This document shows, piece by piece, positions 585 through 24,661 of a DNA stretch of 64,000 bases. The position numbers were made by a program, and so were the translations under genes. The stretch is taken from contig BBSY01000003.1 in the NCBI GenBank assembly GCA_000974665.1, positions 868,001 to 932,000 of the forward strand, given 5' to 3'. Each line of letters starts with the position of its first letter. Position 1 is the stretch's first letter. Origin of the DNA: an alpha proteobacterium U9-1i (GTDB taxonomy: Bacteria > Pseudomonadota > Alphaproteobacteria > Caulobacterales > Aquidulcibacteraceae). The notes under the pieces were generated by a model. That model had not been told where the DNA came from, did not search any database, and saw only the letters and a list, made by a program, of their open reading frames with translations.

Positions 585-1866
585 GCCTCAGCCGCACCGA
601 GCGCGCGTGGGCTGGCAGCCCCTCCGTGTCCGCCAGCGTCGCAGCGCTCGGCCCAATCGCGCGCACCGCATCGGTGCTCGCGCCGATCAGAGTTGTACGC
701 TTCATAAACGTAAGCACCGAGACACCGGATGCATAGCGCGCCGCACGCGAGGTCGGTAGCACGTGGCTTGGGCCAGCGACGTAATCGCCCAACGCTTCCG
801 GCGCCTGCGCGCCCAGGAAAATCGCGCCAGCGTGCCGGATCAACGCCGCCAACCGCTCCGGTTCGCGCGCGGCGATCTGGACGTGCTCAGGGGCGGCCAT
901 GTCGATCAGGCTTGCCGCCTGCTCCAGCTTCGGCACGACAATGATCGCGCCATGCCGCTCCCAAGACGCCCGCGCCGAAGGCCCGGCTTGATGCACCCGC
1001 AACGCCGCTTCAACCGCATCGCCGACGGCGCGCGCATACACATAATCCTGCGTGAACAGCACCGACTGCGCGTCTTCGTCGTGTTCCGCTTGCGCCAGCA
1101 GGTCGGCCGCAATCCATTCCGCCGGCGCCGAACCGTCGGCCCACACGAACACTTCCGACGGTCCCGCCACCGCATCGACACCAACATCGCCGAACACGAT
1201 CTTCTTCGCCGCCGCGACAAACGCATTGCCCGGACCAACGACGACATCGCACGCCGCCAGATCTCCTGCGCCATAGGCCAGCGCCGCAACACCTTGCGCG
1301 CCACCGATCGCCCACACTTCATCAACGCCGGCGATGTCAGCCGCCGCAAGGATCGCTGGGTTTTCGTGCAGCTTGCCCGGCGGTGTCGCCATCACTACGC
1401 GTGACACGCCCGCCGCTTTCGCGGGGATCGCGTTCATCAGTACGCTTGAGGGATACGCCGCCAGCCCGCCCGGCGCGTACACGCCTGCGGAATCCACTGC
1501 CGTCCAGCGCCAACCGAGCGTCACGCCTTCGCCGTCCACCCATTGCGCATCTTCCGGCTTTTGCCGCGCATGAAAATCGTGGATGCGCGCCGCCGCGCGT
1601 TCCAGTGCGGCGATCACGTCGGGCTTGCAGGCCACGCGCGCGGCTTTCCGCGCCGCCTCACTCACACGCAAATCTTCTTGTGTCTGCGCAATCCCATCGT
1701 ACTTCGCGGCCAGCGCCAGCACCGCATTCACGCCACGCGTGCGTACATCATTGACGATCACGCGAACGCCCGCTTCCACGGCATCCAGCCGCGCGCCCCG
1801 CTCAGCGATCAGCTGCGCATATGCGTCGGCAAAATCCGCGTCCACGAAGTTCAGGATGCGCGTCAC
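568..1866 (-). CDS. hisD: histidinol dehydrogenase HisD
   Basis: Catalyses the last two NAD-dependent steps of histidine synthesis, L-histidinol to L-histidine, in the cytoplasm. The 432 residues are the normal full length. Family signatures are in order: the [12 protein letters not shown] and VVGPGN segments of the NAD-binding half, VAGPSEVFV, the zinc/catalytic region [11 protein letters not shown], the PEHVQ motif holding the catalytic Glu-His, and the C-terminal [13 protein letters not shown] with Asp and His ligands. It lies downstream of murA and DUF2948, separated from them by an inverted repeat, and overlaps the next gene by 17 bases. No other his gene is in the window. Confidence 0.98.
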
Positions 1867-1869
1867 TCT

Positions 1870-2020
1870 CCCCCTCCTCTCGAGAGGAGGGGGCCGGGGG
1901 GTGGGGTGAAGCGCGACATTTGATCAGGCGCGCTGAAGGAAAGCGCCGGCACACAATGCCAGTGTTCGAAGGCACGGAGCTTCACCCCACCCCCTGCCCC
2001 CTCCCCTCGCGGGGAGGGGG
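1870..2020. repeat. pair of inverted GC-rich palindromic repeats (REP-like)
   Basis: Two copies of a roughly 45-bp element face each other in the hisD/DUF2948 gap. The left copy begins with a perfect 24-nt palindrome at 1870-1893 and ends with GGGGGGTGGGGTGAAG. The right copy begins with CTTCACCCCACCCCC and ends with a hairpin (10-bp arms, TCGC loop) at 1997-2020. The outer arms are therefore also complementary across about 90 bp. Such CCCTCTCC/GGGGTGGGGTGAAG elements are dispersed in many alphaproteobacterial genomes. In a transcript they would form strong stems and could attenuate or protect the hisD message. Confidence 0.8.
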
Positions 2021-2041
2021 TGCGTTTACGCGCACGCGCCA

Positions 2042-2479
2042 TCAAGCCTTCTCGTGATCGGGACGGCGCGGCGTCGGCCAGGCTGCGCCCAGATCGAGCA
2101 ACATGGCGTCGAGGCACTCCACCGAAAGCACGATGTCGCCGCCGCCCGCGAGCGTGATGCGCACATCGCCGCCTGGCGGCTCCGCCGCAGGCTCAAACGT
2201 CAGCGACAGCACCGCGCCCAGCGCGTCCGGCGCATCCATGCGCAGTTTTCGGCTCTTAACGCCCAGCACGCTCTCGAACGACAGCGCCGCGCGCACCCGC
2301 TCGAACGGGCCATGCTCCTTCATCTCTTCCCAGCGGAAGCGGCTGATCAACGCCGTGAACCGTCGCGCCCTCTTGTCGAACGTCAGATCGCCAACGCGCA
2401 CCAACGCGTCCTGCGCGGCCGCCGCCAGGATATCCAAATCAGCCGCATCCTCGGCCAACAGCTTCAACTGTGCGCTCAA
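2042..2479 (-). CDS. DUF2948 family protein
   Basis: A 145-residue protein resembling the alphaproteobacterial DUF2948 family, which is usually encoded immediately after murA. Visible landmarks are LKLLAEDAADLDILAAAAQDA at the N-terminus, the FRWE motif near residue 50, and a C-terminal GGGDIVLSVECLDAMLLDLG block. Its start codon overlaps the murA stop by four bases (ATGA), which implies translational coupling. No function is known; there is no signal peptide or transmembrane segment. The coupling to murA suggests an envelope-related or regulatory role, but that is inference. Confidence 0.88.
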   Translation of the reverse strand: MSAQLKLLAEDAADLDILAAAAQDALVRVGDLTFDKRARRFTALISRFRWEEMKEHGPFERVRAALSFESVLGVKSRKLRMDAPDALGAVLSLTFEPAAEPPGGDVRITLAGGGDIVLSVECLDAMLLDLGAAWPTPRRPDHEKA

Positions 2480-3750
2480 TCCTCTTCCTTCGTCCGCTTT
2501 ACCTGCGCGCCGCAGGCCGCCAATTTTGGCTCGAGTTTCTCAAAGCCGCGATCCAAGTGGTAAACGCGGTTCACGATGGTCTCGCCTTCGGCGGCGAGGC
2601 CAGCGATCACCAAACTCACCGAAGCACGCAGATCCGTCGCCATCACCGGCGCGCCGATCAATTTCGGCACGCCGGTCACCACGGCTTCGCTGCCTTGCAC
2701 CGCGATCTGCGCGCCCAAGCGCGCGAGTTCCGGAGCGTGCATGAAGCGGTTCTCGAAGATCGTCTCCCGCACGCGTGATTTGCCGTCCGCCAAGCACAGG
2801 AACGCCATCAATTGCGCCTGCAAATCGGTCGGGAAACCGGGGAACGGTTGGGTCTCGAAATCAGCCGGCCCAATCCGCGAGCCCGGCGCGCGCCTCACGC
2901 GCAAGCCTGGCCCAATCGCGTCGATCTCGACGCCGGTCTGACGCATCACATCGAGCAACGCCCCGAGGTGCTCCCAGCGCGCGCCCTGCAGAATGACTTC
3001 GCCGCCCGCAGCAGCGGCAGCGATCGCGTAAGTACCCGCCTCGATCCGATCCGCCACCACCTTGTGCGAACCGCCATTGAGCGAGGTCACGCCCTTGATG
3101 TTGATCTCATTCGTGCCCGCGCCTTCAACTTTAGCGCCCATCATGTTGAGGCATTCGGCGAGATCGACGATCTCGGGCTCGCGCGCGACGTTCCTCAATG
3201 TTGTGTCGCCATGCGCCAGCACGGCGGCGAGCATCGCGTGTTCAGTCGCGCCAACGGACACGAACGGAAACTCGATGTCGGCGCCCTTCAAGCCGCGCAG
3301 CGCCGCCGCTTTCACGTAGCCCTGCTCAATGTGGATGTCAGCGCCCATGGCTTCGAACGCCTTGAGGTGCAGATCAACAGGCCGTGCGCCGATCGCGCAC
3401 CCGCCCGGCAGCGACACCGTCGCGTGGCCCGCGCGCGCCAATAGCGGCCCAAGCACGTTGAACGTGGCGCGCATCTTTCGCACCAGATCGTACGGCGCGA
3501 TTGTTGAGCCGATCTCAGCGGCGTGCAGGCGCAGCGTCCGCGCTTCCTTGATCCACGCCACCTCGACGCCCAGCGACGCCAAAAGCTGCGCCATGAAGCG
3601 CGTGTCGGCGAGGTCGGGCATGTTCTCGAACACGATCGGCTCGGCCGACAGCAACGCCGCCGCCTGCAGCTTCAGCGCGGAGTTCTTCGCCCCGAAAATC
3701 GGGATTGTGCCCTTCAGCGGGGCGCCACCAGTGATGACGATGCGATCCAT
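2476..3750 (-). CDS. murA: UDP-N-acetylglucosamine 1-carboxyvinyltransferase MurA
   Basis: First committed step of peptidoglycan synthesis: transfers enolpyruvate from PEP to UDP-GlcNAc in the cytoplasm. The 424-residue length is typical. Lys22-Asn23 in GAKNSALK form the UDP-GlcNAc/PEP site. The catalytic loop PGGCAIGARP carries Cys118, the residue targeted by fosfomycin; it is Cys rather than the Asp seen in naturally resistant enzymes. The gene heads a minus-strand run with DUF2948 and hisD. A 93-bp gap separates it from a short basic protein gene upstream. Confidence 0.98.
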   Translation of the reverse strand: MDRIVITGGAPLKGTIPIFGAKNSALKLQAAALLSAEPIVFENMPDLADTRFMAQLLASLGVEVAWIKEARTLRLHAAEIGSTIAPYDLVRKMRATFNVLGPLLARAGHATVSLPGGCAIGARPVDLHLKAFEAMGADIHIEQGYVKAAALRGLKGADIEFPFVSVGATEHAMLAAVLAHGDTTLRNVAREPEIVDLAECLNMMGAKVEGAGTNEINIKGVTSLNGGSHKVVADRIEAGTYAIAAAAAGGEVILQGARWEHLGALLDVMRQTGVEIDAIGPGLRVRRAPGSRIGPADFETQPFPGFPTDLQAQLMAFLCLADGKSRVRETIFENRFMHAPELARLGAQIAVQGSEAVVTGVPKLIGAPVMATDLRASVSLVIAGLAAEGETIVNRVYHLDRGFEKLEPKLAACGAQVKRTKEED

Positions 3751-3843
3751 GCGTTTCTTTCGTGGCGGTTGCCGCCCACCCGTTCGGCTGGGTTATGGGG
3801 GCGGCGCGATATGCACGCAAGCGCCCCGCCCGGGCTCCCGCGC

Positions 3844-3975
3844 CTAGGCTTTATCGCCTTGTTTTTGGGCGGCCTTGCGGCGCTTCAGGTTGCGTTTCAG
3901 GGCGTCGGCCTGGCGCGCGGCGCGTGTCTGAGGGCTTGGCGTCTTCGCCGGCTTCCCCTTGCTCACGTCCGCCAT
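3844..3975 (-). CDS. small basic conserved-type protein (43 aa) upstream of murA
   Basis: A short reading frame starting MADVSKGKPAKTPSPQ and ending in the very basic stretch ALKRNLKRRKAAQKQGDKA. Fifteen of its residues are Lys, Arg or His. It has no hydrophobic segment, and the C-terminal half should form a positively charged helix. Similar tiny proteins with an RxxxLxxNLxRRK pattern are commonly annotated beside murA in alphaproteobacteria (from memory, not a search). The stop lies 93 bases before murA on the same strand, so it may share a transcript. Function unknown; nucleic-acid or ribosome binding is only suggested by charge. Confidence 0.68.
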   Translation of the reverse strand: MADVSKGKPAKTPSPQTRAARQADALKRNLKRRKAAQKQGDKA

Positions 3976-4011
3976 CGACCACTCCCGCGCCGGCCCCTAA
4001 GATGCCCCTGC

Positions 4012-5136
4012 ATGAGCGCCGAACCTATATCGCAGCCCTTCGCGCACCGCGGCGCCCTGGGCAACGTCTCCGGCCTCGCGTTCAAAAATGCGCTCCTCAA
4101 CATCGCGACTTTAACGCTCTACCGGTTTTGGGCCCGCACTTCCATGCGCCGCCGGCTCTGGTCGCGCGCTTGGATCATGGGCGATTCGCTCGAATACACC
4201 GGCACCGGCTGGGAACTCTTTCGCGGCTTCCTGATCGCGCTGCCGACCTTCTTCATCCCGGCGATCTTCGTTTTCTACATCGCTCCCTTCGCCATGTCGC
4301 CGATCGCCGCCGGCTGGCTTACGTTCGGCTTCTACATCGTCGCGGTGCCTATGATCGCCGCCGCGCGCTATTGGATGCGCCGCTACCAGCTCTCGCGCAC
4401 GCGCTGGCGCGGCATCCGCATGGGGCTTGAAGGCTCGGCCTGGAGCTTCGCCGCCGCCTCCTGGGGCTGGACTATCCTCCAAACGCTCTCGCTCGGTTGG
4501 TTCACGCCCTCGGCGCGCATGAAGCGTGCGCAGCTCTTGTGGTCGAACGCGCGCTTCGGCGATCAACCGTTCAACTTCATCGAAGACGGCAAGCCGCCGG
4601 CCGAGCCGCTTTGGTGGCCGTTCGCGCTCGGTTGGATCGGCAACATCGTCTCCTGGTTCATCGCCTTCGTCGGCATGGGCATCGTGATCGCCGCATTCGG
4701 CCTCAACGGCATTCTCGAAAGCAACGCCAACCCCACGGCATCGCCGGAAAACGCGGCAATCCTTATAGGCGTTTCCTTCGTCGCCGCCGCCATCCTCGCG
4801 CTCGCCTTGATGGCGCTCTTCTGGGCGCCCTACAACGCCGCCGCCATGAACCGCATCGCCTCGCTCATCGAACTCGACGGCGCGCGCTTCAAGCTCCGCG
4901 CAACCACCTTCGGCCTGCTCGGCGTTACCCTCGCCGGCTGGACGGTGCTGATCCTCTCGCTCGGTTTACTCGCGCCGATCGCCGGCATGTTGCAGGTCCG
5001 CTACGTGATCAACCGCCTCGAACTTGTCGGCACGCCACGCTTCGCCGAAATCGGCCAGAGCATCGTCGCTGAGCCAAAGTCCGGCGAAAGCATCGCTGAC
5101 GCGTTCGATCTCGACATGGGCGTGGGGATCATCTGA
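4012..5136 (+). CDS. DUF898 (YjgN-type) integral membrane protein
   Basis: A 374-residue protein with several hydrophobic segments (for example FLIALPTFFIPAIFVFYIAP, LGWIGNIVSWFIAFVGMGIV and LLGVTLAGWTVLILSLGLLA). It carries the DUF898 hallmarks YRFWARTSMRRRLWS and SLEYTGTGWELFRGFLIA near residues 40-75. I chose the ATG followed by SAEPISQPF; longer in-frame extensions run through the opposite-strand murA and are not credible. Its stop overlaps the start of the M48 peptidase by one base. DUF898 and M48 proteins are frequently paired, so the two probably act together at the inner membrane. Molecular function unknown. Confidence 0.88.
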   Translation: MSAEPISQPFAHRGALGNVSGLAFKNALLNIATLTLYRFWARTSMRRRLWSRAWIMGDSLEYTGTGWELFRGFLIALPTFFIPAIFVFYIAPFAMSPIAAGWLTFGFYIVAVPMIAAARYWMRRYQLSRTRWRGIRMGLEGSAWSFAAASWGWTILQTLSLGWFTPSARMKRAQLLWSNARFGDQPFNFIEDGKPPAEPLWWPFALGWIGNIVSWFIAFVGMGIVIAAFGLNGILESNANPTASPENAAILIGVSFVAAAILALALMALFWAPYNAAAMNRIASLIELDGARFKLRATTFGLLGVTLAGWTVLILSLGLLAPIAGMLQVRYVINRLELVGTPRFAEIGQSIVAEPKSGESIADAFDLDMGVGII

Positions 5137-6427: not shown

Positions 6428-6502
6428 GCCGCGGTAGCTCAGTGGTAGAGCGCACCCTTGGTAAGGGTGAGGTCGAGAGTTCAATCCTCTCCCGTGGCAC
6501 CA
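6428..6502 (+). tRNA. tRNA-Thr (anticodon GGT)
   Basis: A complete cloverleaf can be folded by eye. The acceptor stem GCCGCGG pairs with CCGTGGC (one G-U pair), followed by discriminator A and an encoded CCA. The D arm is GCTCAGTGGTAGAGC. The anticodon loop TTGGTAA carries GGT at 6460-6462. The T arm contains GAGAGTTCAATCCTCTC. GGT reads ACC and ACU threonine codons. The gene stands alone, not in a cluster, and no integrase or attachment-site duplication is visible next to its 3' end. Confidence 0.97.
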
Positions 6503-19743: not shown

Positions 19744-20391
19744 ATGAAGCCGTTCGGCCCCGAGGACCTGATCGCCTGCTACCGGCGCGGGGTGTTCCCG
19801 ATGGCCGAGAGCCGTGGAGACGACGGGTTTTTCATTGTCGATCCGCAAGAACGCTGCATCTTGCCGCTGGACGGTTTCCACCTGTCCAAGCGCCTGAAGC
19901 GCACGCTGCGCAGTGAGCGCTTCAGCTTCACAATCGACCGCGCGTTCATGGCCGTGATCGATGCGTGCGCCGCGCCCGGCCCCGGCCGCGTGGACACCTG
20001 GATCAATCCCGACATTCGCGCGCTCTATTTGGAGCTGCACAAACGTGGCCTCGCGCACAGCGTGGAAGCGAGGATCGGAGGCGAGTTGGTCGGCGGGCTC
20101 TACGGCGTCGCCATCGGCGGGGCATTCTTCGGTGAGAGCATGTTCTCGTTCGCGACGGACGCCAGCAAAGCCGCGCTTGCGCACTTGGTAGCGCGCTTGA
20201 GGTACGGCGGCTTTCGCCTGCTCGATGCGCAATTTTCGACGCCACACCTGGAACAGTTCAACGCCCGCACACTGCCGCGGCGGATTTTCCACGCACTGCT
20301 GGGCGCCGCACTGGAGCAGCGCGGTGATTTTTACGCGCTCGCGGTCGAAACAAGCGGCGCGGAGCTCGCTGAAATTATTGAACGCGCCTAA
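19744..20391 (+). CDS. aat: leucyl/phenylalanyl-tRNA--protein transferase
   Basis: Adds Leu or Phe from aminoacyl-tRNA to N-terminal Arg/Lys of proteins, creating N-degrons read by ClpS-ClpAP. The start MKPFGPEDLIACYRRGVFPMAE gives 215 residues, normal for the family; the upstream in-frame Met belongs to repeat DNA. Diagnostic blocks are the YRRGVFPMAE motif, then VDTWINPDIRALYLELHKRG, GGLYGVAIGGAFFGESMFS and LLDAQFSTPHLEQF. It is convergent with DUF2155, with a four-base overlap of the two stop codons. Confidence 0.97.
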   Translation: MKPFGPEDLIACYRRGVFPMAESRGDDGFFIVDPQERCILPLDGFHLSKRLKRTLRSERFSFTIDRAFMAVIDACAAPGPGRVDTWINPDIRALYLELHKRGLAHSVEARIGGELVGGLYGVAIGGAFFGESMFSFATDASKAALAHLVARLRYGGFRLLDAQFSTPHLEQFNARTLPRRIFHALLGAALEQRGDFYALAVETSGAELAEIIERA

Positions 20392-20756
20392 GCCCGACAG
20401 TCGATCGCCCAGATGTCGTAGACCGGGTGCTCCACCGCACTGAGTCCCGGCGAAGACGCAAAAAGCCAGCCGTGGAAAATCTCAACGCGCTCCGCTGCGG
20501 CTTCGCCCGTGGCGGGCGGATTGTCGAACACTTCCACGTAAATGCGGACTTCCGGCGTTTCTTCCGGCGCGGATTTGGCGCAGGCGCGCGCGACGACATC
20601 CAACGTGCCGATGCGGGTCGCACGGCCAAGCGTCAGCGTATAATCACGGGCGTGGCCCGTGACCTTATCAAGGCCGCGGATCACCGCCCGCTCGGCGAAC
20701 GCCGGCGTTACGGCGGCCGCGCAAAACGCGAACGCTGCCAACACGGTGCGCATCAT
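20388..20756 (-). CDS. DUF2155 family exported protein
   Basis: A 122-residue protein with a Sec signal peptide (MRTVLAAFAFCAAAVTPAFA). The mature part is the alphaproteobacterial DUF2155 domain, with RATRIGTLDVVARACAKS and a C-terminal IFHGWLFASSPGLSAVEHP block, plus Cys residues that may form a disulfide in the periplasm. Function is not established. Its start overlaps the mlaD stop by four bases (ATGA), so it is translationally coupled to a lipid-transport component. The two may act in the same envelope process. Confidence 0.9.
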   Translation of the reverse strand: MMRTVLAAFAFCAAAVTPAFAERAVIRGLDKVTGHARDYTLTLGRATRIGTLDVVARACAKSAPEETPEVRIYVEVFDNPPATGEAAAERVEIFHGWLFASSPGLSAVEHPVYDIWAIDCRA

Positions 20757-21223
20757 GGGGCGGCTTCCTCGGTCTGTGACGATCCCTGCTGGGACGCGAA
20801 ACTCGCGAACAAAGTGAGCAAATCTACGGCGCTTTGTGTGTTGGGGATTTCAGCACCGGGCGCCAGCACCTCCAGGCCCGTAGGTTCGATCGCCACGTAG
20901 GCGCCGCCGAGGAGGCCATCACTCATCACCCGCGCCGTCGATTCATCCAGCACCTCGACGCCGTTGTTCAAAGTCAGCGTTAGGGTCGCCATGTAGGTGG
21001 CGGGGTCGAGGCCGACGGCCTTCACCACGCCCACCTTTACACCCGACACGCGCACATCGGAGCCGACGGCGATGCCGCTGACGTTCTGGAACCGCGCGGT
21101 GAGATCATAACCGCCGCCGCCCGTGGACTGGCCGGCCTGCGCCGCCGCGAATGCAAAAAATCCAATCGCCACCGCCGCGACCGCCGCGCCGACAATCGTT
21201 TCGCCCCAACGTTCGAAATTCAC
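20753..21223 (-). CDS. mlaD: MlaD family outer-membrane lipid asymmetry protein
   Basis: A periplasmic phospholipid carrier anchored by one N-terminal helix (ETIVGAAVAAVAIGFFAFAAA). The MCE domain follows, with YDLTARFQNVSGIAVGSDVRVSGVKVG and the closing SDGLLGGAYVAIEP motif. The 156-residue length equals that of a single-MCE-domain MlaD. The ATPase and permease partners (MlaE, MlaF) are not in this window and must be encoded elsewhere. The order NDUFA12-mlaD-DUF2155-aat is conserved in related alphaproteobacteria (recalled, not searched). Confidence 0.93.
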   Translation of the reverse strand: MNFERWGETIVGAAVAAVAIGFFAFAAAQAGQSTGGGGYDLTARFQNVSGIAVGSDVRVSGVKVGVVKAVGLDPATYMATLTLTLNNGVEVLDESTARVMSDGLLGGAYVAIEPTGLEVLAPGAEIPNTQSAVDLLTLFASFASQQGSSQTEEAAP

Positions 21224-21251: not shown

Positions 21252-21644
21252 TCACGGATCCGGCGTCCAGCTTTCGTAGTCGGCCGTTGACGTCGCCCTA
21301 ACACCACCGCGCGCGAGCGAGCCTTTCGGCCGATAGGCGCGCACCGTGCCCGTCTGGTTGGGCAGATGCGGCAGCTCCCACGATTGGCGCTTCAGCGCCT
21401 TCTCGGTCGGCGGCTCGTCAATGATATGGTGCATCCAGCCGTGCCAATCAGGGGTGACGAGCGAGGCTTCTGCCAAATTCTTGTAGATGACGTAGCGCCG
21501 CTTGCGGCCTTCGAGGCTCGGCTTTTTTTCCTCATAATAGCGATTGCCGTACTCGTCCTCGCCAACGAACGCGCCGCGCCGGCCGATGTCGAACAGCGCG
21601 CCAAGGGTCGCGCCGTTCCACCAGGTGAAGATGCGTTTCAGCAT
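21252..21644 (-). CDS. NADH:ubiquinone oxidoreductase accessory subunit NDUFA12 family
   Basis: A supernumerary complex I subunit shared by alphaproteobacteria and mitochondria (B17.2). The start MLKRIFTWWNGATLG gives 130 residues. Family landmarks are the FVGEDEYGNRYYE block, then RRYVIYKNLAEASLVTPDWHGWMHH and the LPNQTGTVRAYRPKGS tail. It is peripheral, on the matrix/cytoplasmic side of the enzyme. It leads the minus-strand run with mlaD and DUF2155 and is divergent from the NrdJ-like gene, leaving a 179-bp shared upstream region. Confidence 0.94.
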   Translation of the reverse strand: MLKRIFTWWNGATLGALFDIGRRGAFVGEDEYGNRYYEEKKPSLEGRKRRYVIYKNLAEASLVTPDWHGWMHHIIDEPPTEKALKRQSWELPHLPNQTGTVRAYRPKGSLARGGVRATSTADYESWTPDP

Positions 21645-21730
21645 AGCCGGTCGAAAGCGTCCTGATTCAAGGGTTTGAGCGGGCCGCACTATGGCGGCGC
21701 CCGCCTGCCCCGTCCAGTGCGGGTGCGAAA

Positions 21731-21823: not shown

Positions 21824-24661
21824 ATGGCCCAGGATTATGAGCTCGACGCGGACGGCCCCGCGCCCGGTCCGGACGCGCCCGAGAGCTGGAGCGCGTCGAT
21901 GGCCCAAGCCGCCGATGAGGCGGGTTTGGTCACCGAAACCGCCAGCGGCCCCTCCGTATGCGCCGCGATCTCCAAAGTCAGTGCGCGGCTCGCCCAATGG
22001 GCCGGGGAACCGGCCATCGCCGACGACCTCGAAGCTCTGCTGATTGATGGCAAGGCGGCGTTCGATCCGCCTCTCATCCGCGCCGCGCTCTCCAACGGCG
22101 CTGACCTTGCGCTCTCGGCCGCGTTGCTGCGCTGGCCGAGCGATCCCGCGGAAGAACTGAAACTGCTCGCCCGCGCGCAGACGTTGCTGGCCGCGGGCGC
22201 GCGGCTTGGCATCGCCGGAAATCCGTCGAACGCCGCGCTTGACGCGCTCGACGCTGCGGCGCGCATCATCGATCCAAGTGGCCGCAACGGCGTCGCCGTG
22301 CTGGCGCGCCCCGATCTCGCGAGCGCCCCGGCGATCCTTGCGGAGGATGCCGCGCGCCAACGCGCCAGTGCGGCGCTGGCCGCCGGCGCCCGCGCGCTGG
22401 ACGGCGTACTCGCGGAACTCGCCATCGAAACCGTGCGCGCAGGGCTCGATCGCGAAAATGGCGGCGTGCAGCGCAAGGCTGCGGCCGCGCGCCTTGCTGG
22501 CGCGCCCGACGCTGACATTGTCTCGGCGCTCACCGGTGTTGCGCCGCGCGGCGCGTTCGCTGCTGCGCTCGACGCCGGCGTGGAGCCGCAACGTCGGCGT
22601 ATTCGCATCGCCGCGCCTGAAGCCAGCGGCCACGCGATGACCGCCTTCGGCGCCGCCGCGATCGATCCGACCGGGGCGATCGCCGCTGACGACGAACGCG
22701 GCGTGATCGCCGCGTCGCTGGCGCTGCCGCGCTTCGTCGCCGATGGCGGATTCGACGCCGATGGCTTCATCTCGGCCATCACGCTGCTGGTGCGCGCGCT
22801 CGACGGCGCCCACGGCTCATCAAGCGCCGCGCCGCGCCGCCCCATCGTGATCCGGCTGGAAGGCCTAGCGGCGATGCTAATGCGCGCAGGCGTCGCCTAC
22901 GACAGCGACGAGGGCCGCGCGCTTGCCGCAAGCATCGCCGCACTTGCGCATGCCGCCGCGCATTCCGTCAGCCTCGCGCTTGGTGAGGCCAAAGGCGCTT
23001 ATCCTGAATGGTCGCGCGCGAAGAAGGGCGAGGAGCGCGCCGCCAAGGCCGCGCTTGACGCCGCCAGCGCCCTCGACACGCCGCTGGCGCGACGCGCCGT
23101 TGAATTGCATCGGGCCGCAAGCAAGCAAGGCGCGCTGCGCGCCTCCGTTTCCATCGCGTTCGCACGCGACGCCGCGAGCGCGCGCCGGATTGGCATAGAC
23201 GTTGAAGGCCTGGCGCCGATCGCCGGCGTTTCAGCTTATGGCGCGCGCGAAGACGGCCGCTTCGGGCGCATCTTGTCGGACGACGCGCGCGCCGGGCTCG
23301 CAGCGCTTGGCTACGACGATGACGCCATTGCTCGCTTCGCGCTTCACGTTGAAGGCCGGCGCACCTTGCGCGGCGCGCCCGGCGTGAGCTTGGCAGCGCT
23401 CTCGGCGCGCGGCTTCACAGAGCCCGCGCTCGAAGCCATCGAAGACGCCGCCGCTGACGCGTTCAACATTCGCGCCGCCGTGCATCCGCTCGTCGTCGGC
23501 CCGGCCTTCTGCGAAGAGGTGCTGAAGCTGCCGCCAGACGTGGCCGCCGGCAAACGCGGCGACCTGCTGCTGACTTTGGGCTTCAGCGGCGAAGAGATTT
23601 CAGAGGCCGAAGCCTTCTGCATGGGCGCGGGCCGGCTGGACAATGCCGAGGAACTCGATCCGGACTATGCTGCGATTTTCTCAACCGACATCCGCGCCGA
23701 AGCGCGCATTGCGATGGCTGCGGCATTGACCCCATTCGCGCGCGTGGCTCTCGACGTCACGATCACCGAGTCCAACGCCGACCGCCGCGCTACGCTCACC
23801 GAGGCTGCACGCGAAGCGGGCGTGACGTTGTTTGCGCTCCACGCTGAGGCGCCATCGATCACGTTGATCCTGCCGGCTTTGGAAGAAGATGCGCCGATCG
23901 CTCCAGTTGCGGCCGCGCCGCTGGGGTCAATCCCGCTTGGATCTGTCCCACTCGCGGATGTCGCCCAGGAGGCGCCCGCGCAAGTCATGCGCCGGCGTCT
24001 GCCGGATCGCCGCAAGGGCTACATCCAGAAATCGCAGATCGGCGGCCACAAAGTCTATCTGCACACCGGCGAGTATGACGACGGCGCGCTGGGCGAGATC
24101 TTCATCGATCTGCACAAGGAGGGCGCCGCTTTCCGCTCGCTGATGAACAATTTCGCCATCTCGATTTCGATCGGCCTGCAATACGGCGTGCCGCTCGAGG
24201 AATACGTGGACGCATTCCTGTTCACGCGCTTTGAGCCTGCGGGCGAAGTGCGCGGCAACGACACGATCCGCCACGCGACGTCGATCCTCGACTACATCTT
24301 CCGCGAGCTCGCGGTGAGCTATCTCGGCCGCGCCGACCTCGCGCAGATCGATCCGTTCGACGCCCGCGGCGATGGCTTGTCCAAGAAAGCCACCGACGCG
24401 GAAAGCGCCGCGCGTCTCATTTCACGCGGGTTCGCGCGCGCGGCTTCTGGCGACAATCTCGTCATGCTGCGCCCGAAAAGCGATCGCGTGGTGGAGCCGT
24501 TGCGCGGGCGCGGCGGCGCCGACAAACCGGCGACGGTCTCCTCGCTCACGGCGCGCTACCGGGCTGATCCATGCGGCGCGTGCGGGCACTTCACGGTCGA
24601 GACCGAAACCGCCCAGTGCGCGGCATGCGGCGCTAAGGGCGAGGCGGCGAGCGAGCGTTAA
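21824..24661 (+). CDS. NrdJ-like (class II ribonucleotide reductase) homologue lacking catalytic loop; probable pseudoenzyme
   Basis: A 945-residue protein whose C-terminal two thirds is collinear with adenosylcobalamin-dependent NrdJ. Matching blocks, recalled from the family, are ASLALPRF (NrdJ ASLNL), [51 protein letters not shown], then the TSCPD region [15 protein letters not shown] to [20 protein letters not shown], and a four-Cys tail ([15 protein letters not shown]). Just before ASLAL, where NrdJ has its Asn-x-Cys-x-Glu radical loop, the sequence is [12 protein letters not shown], with neither Cys nor Glu. The N-terminal 280 residues are diverged and Ala-rich. It is therefore unlikely to reduce ribonucleotides; a regulatory role is inferred. 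Confidence 0.8.

Follow-up and report, generated by a model that had tools for sequence, protein, structure and literature searches.

The large subunits of herpesvirus ribonucleotide reductase (RNR) have been repurposed for non-catalytic use. They are class I, viral chains that stem from an unrelated event, and serve us as an analogy only. The closest described relative of the protein reported here is the alphaproteobacterial long NrdJ (NF005736 / PRK07562; Rhodobacter sphaeroides 7b9p, 7b9q), a B12-dependent class II RNR of about 1220 residues. In Pseudomonas aeruginosa a C-terminal part with the same domains, which we liken to it by description, forms a separate chain, NrdJb; this has redox cysteines and serves disulfide exchange, according to the accessible text of PMC9669993 and PMC4520616. 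The CRD of Stackebrandtia nassauensis NrdJd has the same zinc-ribbon end and, in what is accessible of PMC5704485, needs all six of its cysteines for electron transfer, Cys933 and Cys945 being the redox pair. The TSCPD domain of these enzymes is termed IscU-like in PMC9669993, which also states that the literature assigns this domain of the long class II RNRs no role. Our literature search found no paper pairing TSCPD with ribonucleotide reductase, nor any title or visible abstract on a catalytically dead bacterial NrdJ family (supplements and subscription papers lay outside its scope).

Within the window (the whole stretch of 64,000 nucleotides that was analysed), the open reading frame at 21824-24661 is a counterpart of long NrdJ that differs from it in ways that bear on the role of this domain. 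The features in and around it are:

20388..21223, minus strand: DUF2155 and MlaD-family genes, part of the same conserved block (PF09923, PF02470, synteny)
21252..21689, minus strand: NDUFA12-family gene, divergent, upstream (PF05071)
21824..24661, plus strand: degenerate long NrdJ, entire gene, 945 aa (ORF listing, family matches, orthologues, dN/dS)
21866..22663, plus strand: remnant of the N-terminal region and first barrel half, residues 15-280 (alignment)
22664..22678, plus strand: finger-loop remnant DPTGA, residues 281-285, replacing NPCSE (gapless alignment to intact NrdJ)
22703..22705, plus strand: Val294, replacing the second active-site Cys (alignment)
22706..23263, plus strand: second barrel half, residues 295-480, with the NrdJ APTGT loop gone (alignment, PF02867 at 297-467)
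23264..23743, plus strand: helical region, residues 481-640, of moderate conservation (dN/dS 0.196, identity)
23984..24343, plus strand: TSCPD domain, residues 721-840, the best conserved segment (PF12637, dN/dS, identity)
24554..24649, plus strand: C-terminal zinc-ribbon remnant, residues 911-942 (alignment; cysteine roles as given in the accessible text of PMC5704485)
24680..25246, plus strand: pentapeptide-repeat gene (PF00805)

The protein scores above cut-off for two Pfam models, PF02867 at residues 297-467 (44.3 bits against 23.9) and the TSCPD model PF12637 at residues 737-830 (37.7 bits against 22.8). Its best NCBIfam model is that of the long B12-dependent RNR, NF005736 (E 1.6e-104), whose cut-off of 1737 it misses at 350.6 bits. 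It shares its locus with the alphaproteobacterial long NrdJ and is collinear with it from the barrel through the helical region and the TSCPD domain to the zinc ribbon, but at 945 residues it is shorter, and it lacks the thiyl Cys, the Asn and Glu, the active-site Cys pair and the two redox cysteines of the tail. The finger loop aligns without gaps to that of intact long NrdJ (NPCSEYMFLDDTAC), so that the Asn, thiyl Cys and Glu of NrdJ correspond to Asp281, Thr283 and Ala285. The first active-site cysteine and the APTGT loop have been lost as well, the residue 15-280 remnant having no counterpart of the first redox cysteine found in the HACFI motif of NrdJ. Seven cysteines remain in all (46, 563, 599 and four in the tail); Cys563 and Cys599 sit in the helical region, the barrel has no Cys at the known catalytic place, and neither alignment nor residue check found a thiyl Cys or Glu elsewhere in the 945 residues. 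In the tail the zinc ligands Cys917, Cys920, Cys932 and Cys935 are present, and the counterparts of the NrdJd Cys933/Cys945 pair are missing.

An AlphaFold model built with 30 sequences (mean pLDDT 73.2, pTM 0.69; mostly 83-96 over residues 20-170) has R. sphaeroides NrdJ 7b9p as its best PDB match in Foldseek (E 1.3e-20, TM 0.52/0.55, 17% identity), followed by class I RNRs and T. maritima RNRs. By descent, the protein belongs to the RNR barrel superfamily (PF02867 above cut-off, barrel fold); it stands outside the catalytic class II RNRs, as the finger-loop Cys, the active-site Cys pair, the tail redox pair and the NF005736 cut-off all fail. As far as its sequence can show, this is a long class II NrdJ that has lost catalysis while keeping the barrel fold. 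The initial annotation had proposed an NrdJ-derived pseudoenzyme, collinear with NrdJ and retaining its fold without the radical loop, and these points are borne out by the aligned motifs, by DPTGA in place of NPCSE and by the match to 7b9p. Its further statement that the tail which re-reduces the active site is retained holds for the four zinc cysteines only; the redox pair is gone, and with it the re-reduction function.

The genome has other RNRs. A PF02867 search finds three RNR-like genes, including a short class II enzyme (L001; TIGR02504, 569.8 bits, cut-off 399.95), which is a separate gene located elsewhere and carries a TSCPD domain of its own, and a class I alpha chain (L002; NF006577, 1032.2 bits, cut-off 620); nrdB is also present.

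Nor is the dead gene an oddity of one genome. An orthologous match is found in 54 of 60 genomes of the family and in 27 of the 30 from its own genus; in three family genomes the frame is apparently broken (split between frames in G052 and G036, one TGA in G029), through either sequencing error or decay. The order was surveyed in 398 genomes. Of these, 81 contain the back-translated motif PCSEYMF, distributed among five families (f1 to f5) as 0/60, 0/93, 0/93, 31/90 and 50/62, and 78 pass the NF005736 cut-off. A score-based tally, in which a copy was called dead when its best E lay at about 1e-57 to 1e-122 and PCSEYMF was missing, assigned a dead copy to 282 of the 398, intact genes or fragments of them to 94, and neither to 22; the gene can therefore be lost. 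With the dead gene present in so many genomes, we rejected an artefact of a single assembly. Individual inspection of 189 ORF rows (duplicates included) gave 94 dead and 95 others; 16 further proteins were inspected in the same way. One row among the 94 (L150) has a chance NxCxE elsewhere in the protein; two among the 95 are cut by contig ends, and another of the 95, L115 from G189, is an otherwise intact long NrdJ (2003 bits) that reads SPCSE instead of NPCSE. The opposite case, a barrel without a tail, was seen in f4, where in the NrdJ of G217 (C1:1106544-1108709) the match to the model ends at position 741, and the genome has no TSCPD match.

Beyond the order, a class-level survey of 385 genomes (five of them from the order itself) gave a match in 340, with 222 over the NF005736 cut-off. 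We followed 16 genomes of intermediate score, of which seven had no TSCPD match and nine had the domain; eight of these nine are reduced or dead, the ninth (G460) being a fragment at a contig edge, whose tail has six cysteines and looks intact. Long ORFs without NxCxE occur in G613, G702, G777, G437, G728 and G496, with TSCPD identity to intact enzymes down to 53% in G728 and 45% in G496, both of outlying families. In G405 (282 residues) and G494 (278 residues) the ORF is barely more than a TSCPD domain and adjoins NDUFA12 (and aspS too in G494). These stand-alone ORFs (L231, 1300-2145, in G405; L232, 1195-2028, in G494) lie at the ancestral nrdJ locus of small genomes, 1.4 and 1.2 Mb respectively, from two other alphaproteobacterial families. 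PF12637 is above its cut-off in L232, as it is in a longer dead copy, L211 (G275, 1554-4370). The zinc ribbon is missing from the 278-residue ORF of G494 and from the copy in G267, which is of the same order as our genome, so the minimal unit that is kept is the TSCPD domain.

The surroundings of the gene tell of its descent. The conserved order is, upstream and divergent, NDUFA12, MlaD and DUF2155, then aat; and, downstream, the pentapeptide-repeat gene (starting 18 bases past the stop codon of the dead nrdJ) and aspS. By eye, the pentapeptide-repeat gene has a signal-peptide-like start; it closely trails nrdJ at many loci, dead or intact. NDUFA12 is a habitual neighbour of nrdJ in both states. 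Of 20 dead loci from f2, f3 and f4, 19 have it next to the gene (the exception, L203, has none of the neighbours), as do all 16 of a further set. Among loci with intact long nrdJ the figures are 25 of 65 (several of these contigs being cut) and 16 of 30, the latter from f4/f5 and examined with 1.5 kb flanks only. This common neighbourhood indicates that dead and intact genes share one ancestral place; and since that place is the alphaproteobacterial nrdJ locus, which elsewhere holds the intact enzyme, the dead gene is an orthologue of long NrdJ and not the regulatory paralogue that had been suggested for it. It is a vertically inherited, ancestral alphaproteobacterial long nrdJ that has decayed in place. 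A weakly supported FastTree of the TSCPD block (87 sequences) places some of the dead f1 copies apart from the dead f2 to f4 ones, with intact f4 and f5 copies nested between the two. Promoter and terminator scans gave matches at chance level only. The window holds two three-mismatch matches to the NrdR box, against a chance mean of 2.75, and none is near the dead nrdJ; its sole Rfam match is a tRNA at 6428-6499, so that neither a cobalamin riboswitch in the window nor any other RNA family near the gene was found.

Selection on the gene is purifying and uneven. Nei-Gojobori counting over 19 same-genus orthologues (171 pairs) gave a median dN/dS of 0.235 overall, and by part 0.052 for TSCPD (721-840), 0.125 for the zinc ribbon, 0.196 for the helical region, 0.269 for the barrel and 0.439 for the linker. 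The median pS of TSCPD is 0.47; synonymous sites do therefore vary, and we rejected nucleotide-level constraint as the source of its conservation. The same pattern is seen when 28 dead proteins (8 from f1, 7 from f2, 7 from f3, 6 from f4) are aligned with 11 intact f4/f5 enzymes and 16 intact enzymes from outside the order. Measured against the 16 outside enzymes, dead proteins average an identity of 0.79-0.80 across the 120 columns of TSCPD, and intact f4/f5 proteins 0.80-0.81. In the two halves of the barrel the corresponding means are 0.13-0.26 (dead, 39-85% of columns aligned) and 0.63-0.66 (intact); in the helical region dead copies reach 26-34% identity to intact enzymes and intact ones 50-55%. 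The thiyl Cys, the Glu, both active-site cysteines and both tail redox cysteines are present in 0/28 dead and 27/27 intact proteins; the Asn column of the finger loop has Asn in two of the 28, both loosely aligned f2 rows. All 28 keep the four zinc cysteines. With its catalytic residues lost, purifying selection acting and orthologues conserved, the dead NrdJ is a conserved pseudoenzyme. Such proteins are a known kind, and we know of no bacterial case in the RNR family.

That TSCPD has not relaxed upon the loss of catalysis would be hard to explain if serving catalysis were its sole task. We propose (with a probability of roughly 0.7) that the dead NrdJ is a long NrdJ minus reduction, kept for a second, catalysis-independent job of the TSCPD domain that is of ancestral origin. 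The TSCPD domain of the ancestral enzyme may already have held this job, binding a partner or ligand via its conserved basic motif before catalysis was lost. Class I NrdAB, plus the separate short NrdJ in some genomes, would then have taken over dNTP supply; the TSCPD job could have ensured survival of the gene once other RNRs did so, leaving the dead barrel as a diverging scaffold. There is a precedent for the domain acting in trans: in P. aeruginosa the same C-terminal part is a chain of its own, NrdJb, and binds NrdJa (accessible text of PMC4520616). Several results weigh against the proposal. By the tally 22 of the 398 genomes have no long copy of either kind, TSCPD is weakly kept in G728 and G496, and three family genomes have frames that look interrupted; of the 16 class-level genomes of intermediate score, seven gave no TSCPD match and G460 gave only its intact-looking fragment; the window showed neither an NrdR box above chance nor a cobalamin riboswitch; and in Foldseek the C-terminal model has no PDB match at E <= 0.001, IscU entries standing near E 1. 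The candidates that remain for TSCPD are class I NrdAB, nucleotides and nucleic acids, and we suggest, tentatively, that its likeliest job is a non-catalytic one connected with nucleotide or DNA metabolism, as an adaptor or a regulator, with NrdAB as one possible target.

A more specific form of this idea is that the dead chain regulates class I NrdAB, allosterically or at its assembly, by binding NrdA, NrdB or nucleotides, and so tunes dNTP synthesis. In keeping with this, all 11 genomes tested for nrdB contain it, and they include carriers both outside the order and in five of its families; a precedent exists in viruses, where dead RNR large subunits act on other proteins (EBV, accessible text of PMC9669993). 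The co-occurrence says little, however, because class I RNR is near universal among those genomes, and no common regulation or neighbourhood was seen; we regard a dedicated NrdAB regulator as possible, though we would not yet expect it.

It is more doubtful that the protein binds RNA or DNA through the basic motif of TSCPD together with the zinc ribbon. The basic positions R723, R729, R730, K736 and H742 are conserved in dead and intact proteins alike and the four-Cys ribbon is retained in 93 of the 94 dead ORF rows (duplicates included), as such a role would have it; but the basic residues could equally bind nucleotide phosphates or a partner, and the ribbon is dispensed with in G267 and the short ORF of G494.

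A non-catalytic partner or inhibitor of the organism's own class II RNR, forming hetero-oligomers with the short NrdJ via the NrdJb-like part, is unlikely. The binding of NrdJa by NrdJb and the short, TSCPD-bearing NrdJ of our genome made it attractive, and the initial annotation had likewise thought of a regulator of the real enzyme, a subunit, or a sensor of nucleotide or cobalamin. The short NrdJ (L001, 1231-3462, in our genome) is patchy in the family, however, at 22 of 60 genomes, as if often gained and lost; NCBIfam typing covers our own copy alone, and the remaining 21 rest on PF02867 score. It occurs in 19 of 54 carriers of the dead gene and in 3 of 6 non-carriers (Fisher p 0.66), and we therefore rejected a dependence of the dead gene on it, the two co-occurring without association. 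As 35 of the 54 carriers among the 60 family genomes have no second class II gene, and three Caulobacter-like genomes (G275, G152 and G188) have only a class I large subunit, a class II partner is improbable as a general answer, and a regulator or sensor role of the kind first suggested, if there is one, is not tied to such a partner.

That the gene is a functionless, decaying pseudogene is very improbable: the fast divergence of barrel and linker, the few interrupted frames and the absence from 22 of the 398 genomes are what one would expect of decay, but that reading is contradicted by the selection test (and was rejected for this reason), by dead copies in 282 genomes of the score-based tally and by a TSCPD conservation equal to that of working enzymes. 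Least credible of all is a working RNR with a rearranged active site, which the retained fold might suggest; we rejected it with the catalytic Cys and Glu lost, none of the seven cysteines in the barrel at the known catalytic place, the tail redox pair gone and working RNRs elsewhere in the genome.

The loss of catalysis also bears on how Caulobacter is read. The ChpT protein of G275 shares 224 of 225 residues with PDB 4fmt, which its publication (as far as accessible) gives as a C. crescentus protein, so that G275 is C. crescentus or very close to it. In each of G275, G152 and G188 a single class I large subunit is accompanied by a dead copy, which lies at the same nrdJ locus; the dead frames are of 939, 939 and 922 residues, with PF02867 matches (E 0.04-0.33) below the cut-off, and that of G275 scores 398.2 bits against the NF005736 cut-off of 1737. 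Caulobacter vibrioides, used as a named control, is likewise under that cut-off. In their accessible text, PMC6538847 names CCNA_01966 NrdJ and lists dNTP production among the uses of B12 in Caulobacter crescentus, and a table in PMC5869019 gives CCNA_01966 as vitamin B12-dependent ribonucleotide reductase; the gene was not found in the main text of the CauloKO paper. From the near-identical genome G275 we infer that CCNA_01966 is the dead copy. Since the RNR genes of a genome so near to C. crescentus are limited to class I and a dead NrdJ, the published B12-dependent label is probably wrong. If CCNA_01966 is the dead copy, the dNTP part of the B12 economy of C. crescentus will have to be redrawn, and genes of this type routinely lead to genomes being scored as carriers of a B12-dependent RNR.

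On balance we favour the wider view that the alphaproteobacterial long class II RNR is bifunctional, the job of its TSCPD domain having remained under selection after B12-dependent reduction was dropped: as dead NrdJ in much of the Caulobacter-type order and as a near-solitary TSCPD domain elsewhere, with the B12-dependent RNR annotation of Caulobacter wrong. The dead proteins would then be a natural separation-of-function mutant of NrdJ, in which the enzyme is dead but the IscU-like domain has been kept, and the role of that domain would thereby be directly testable.
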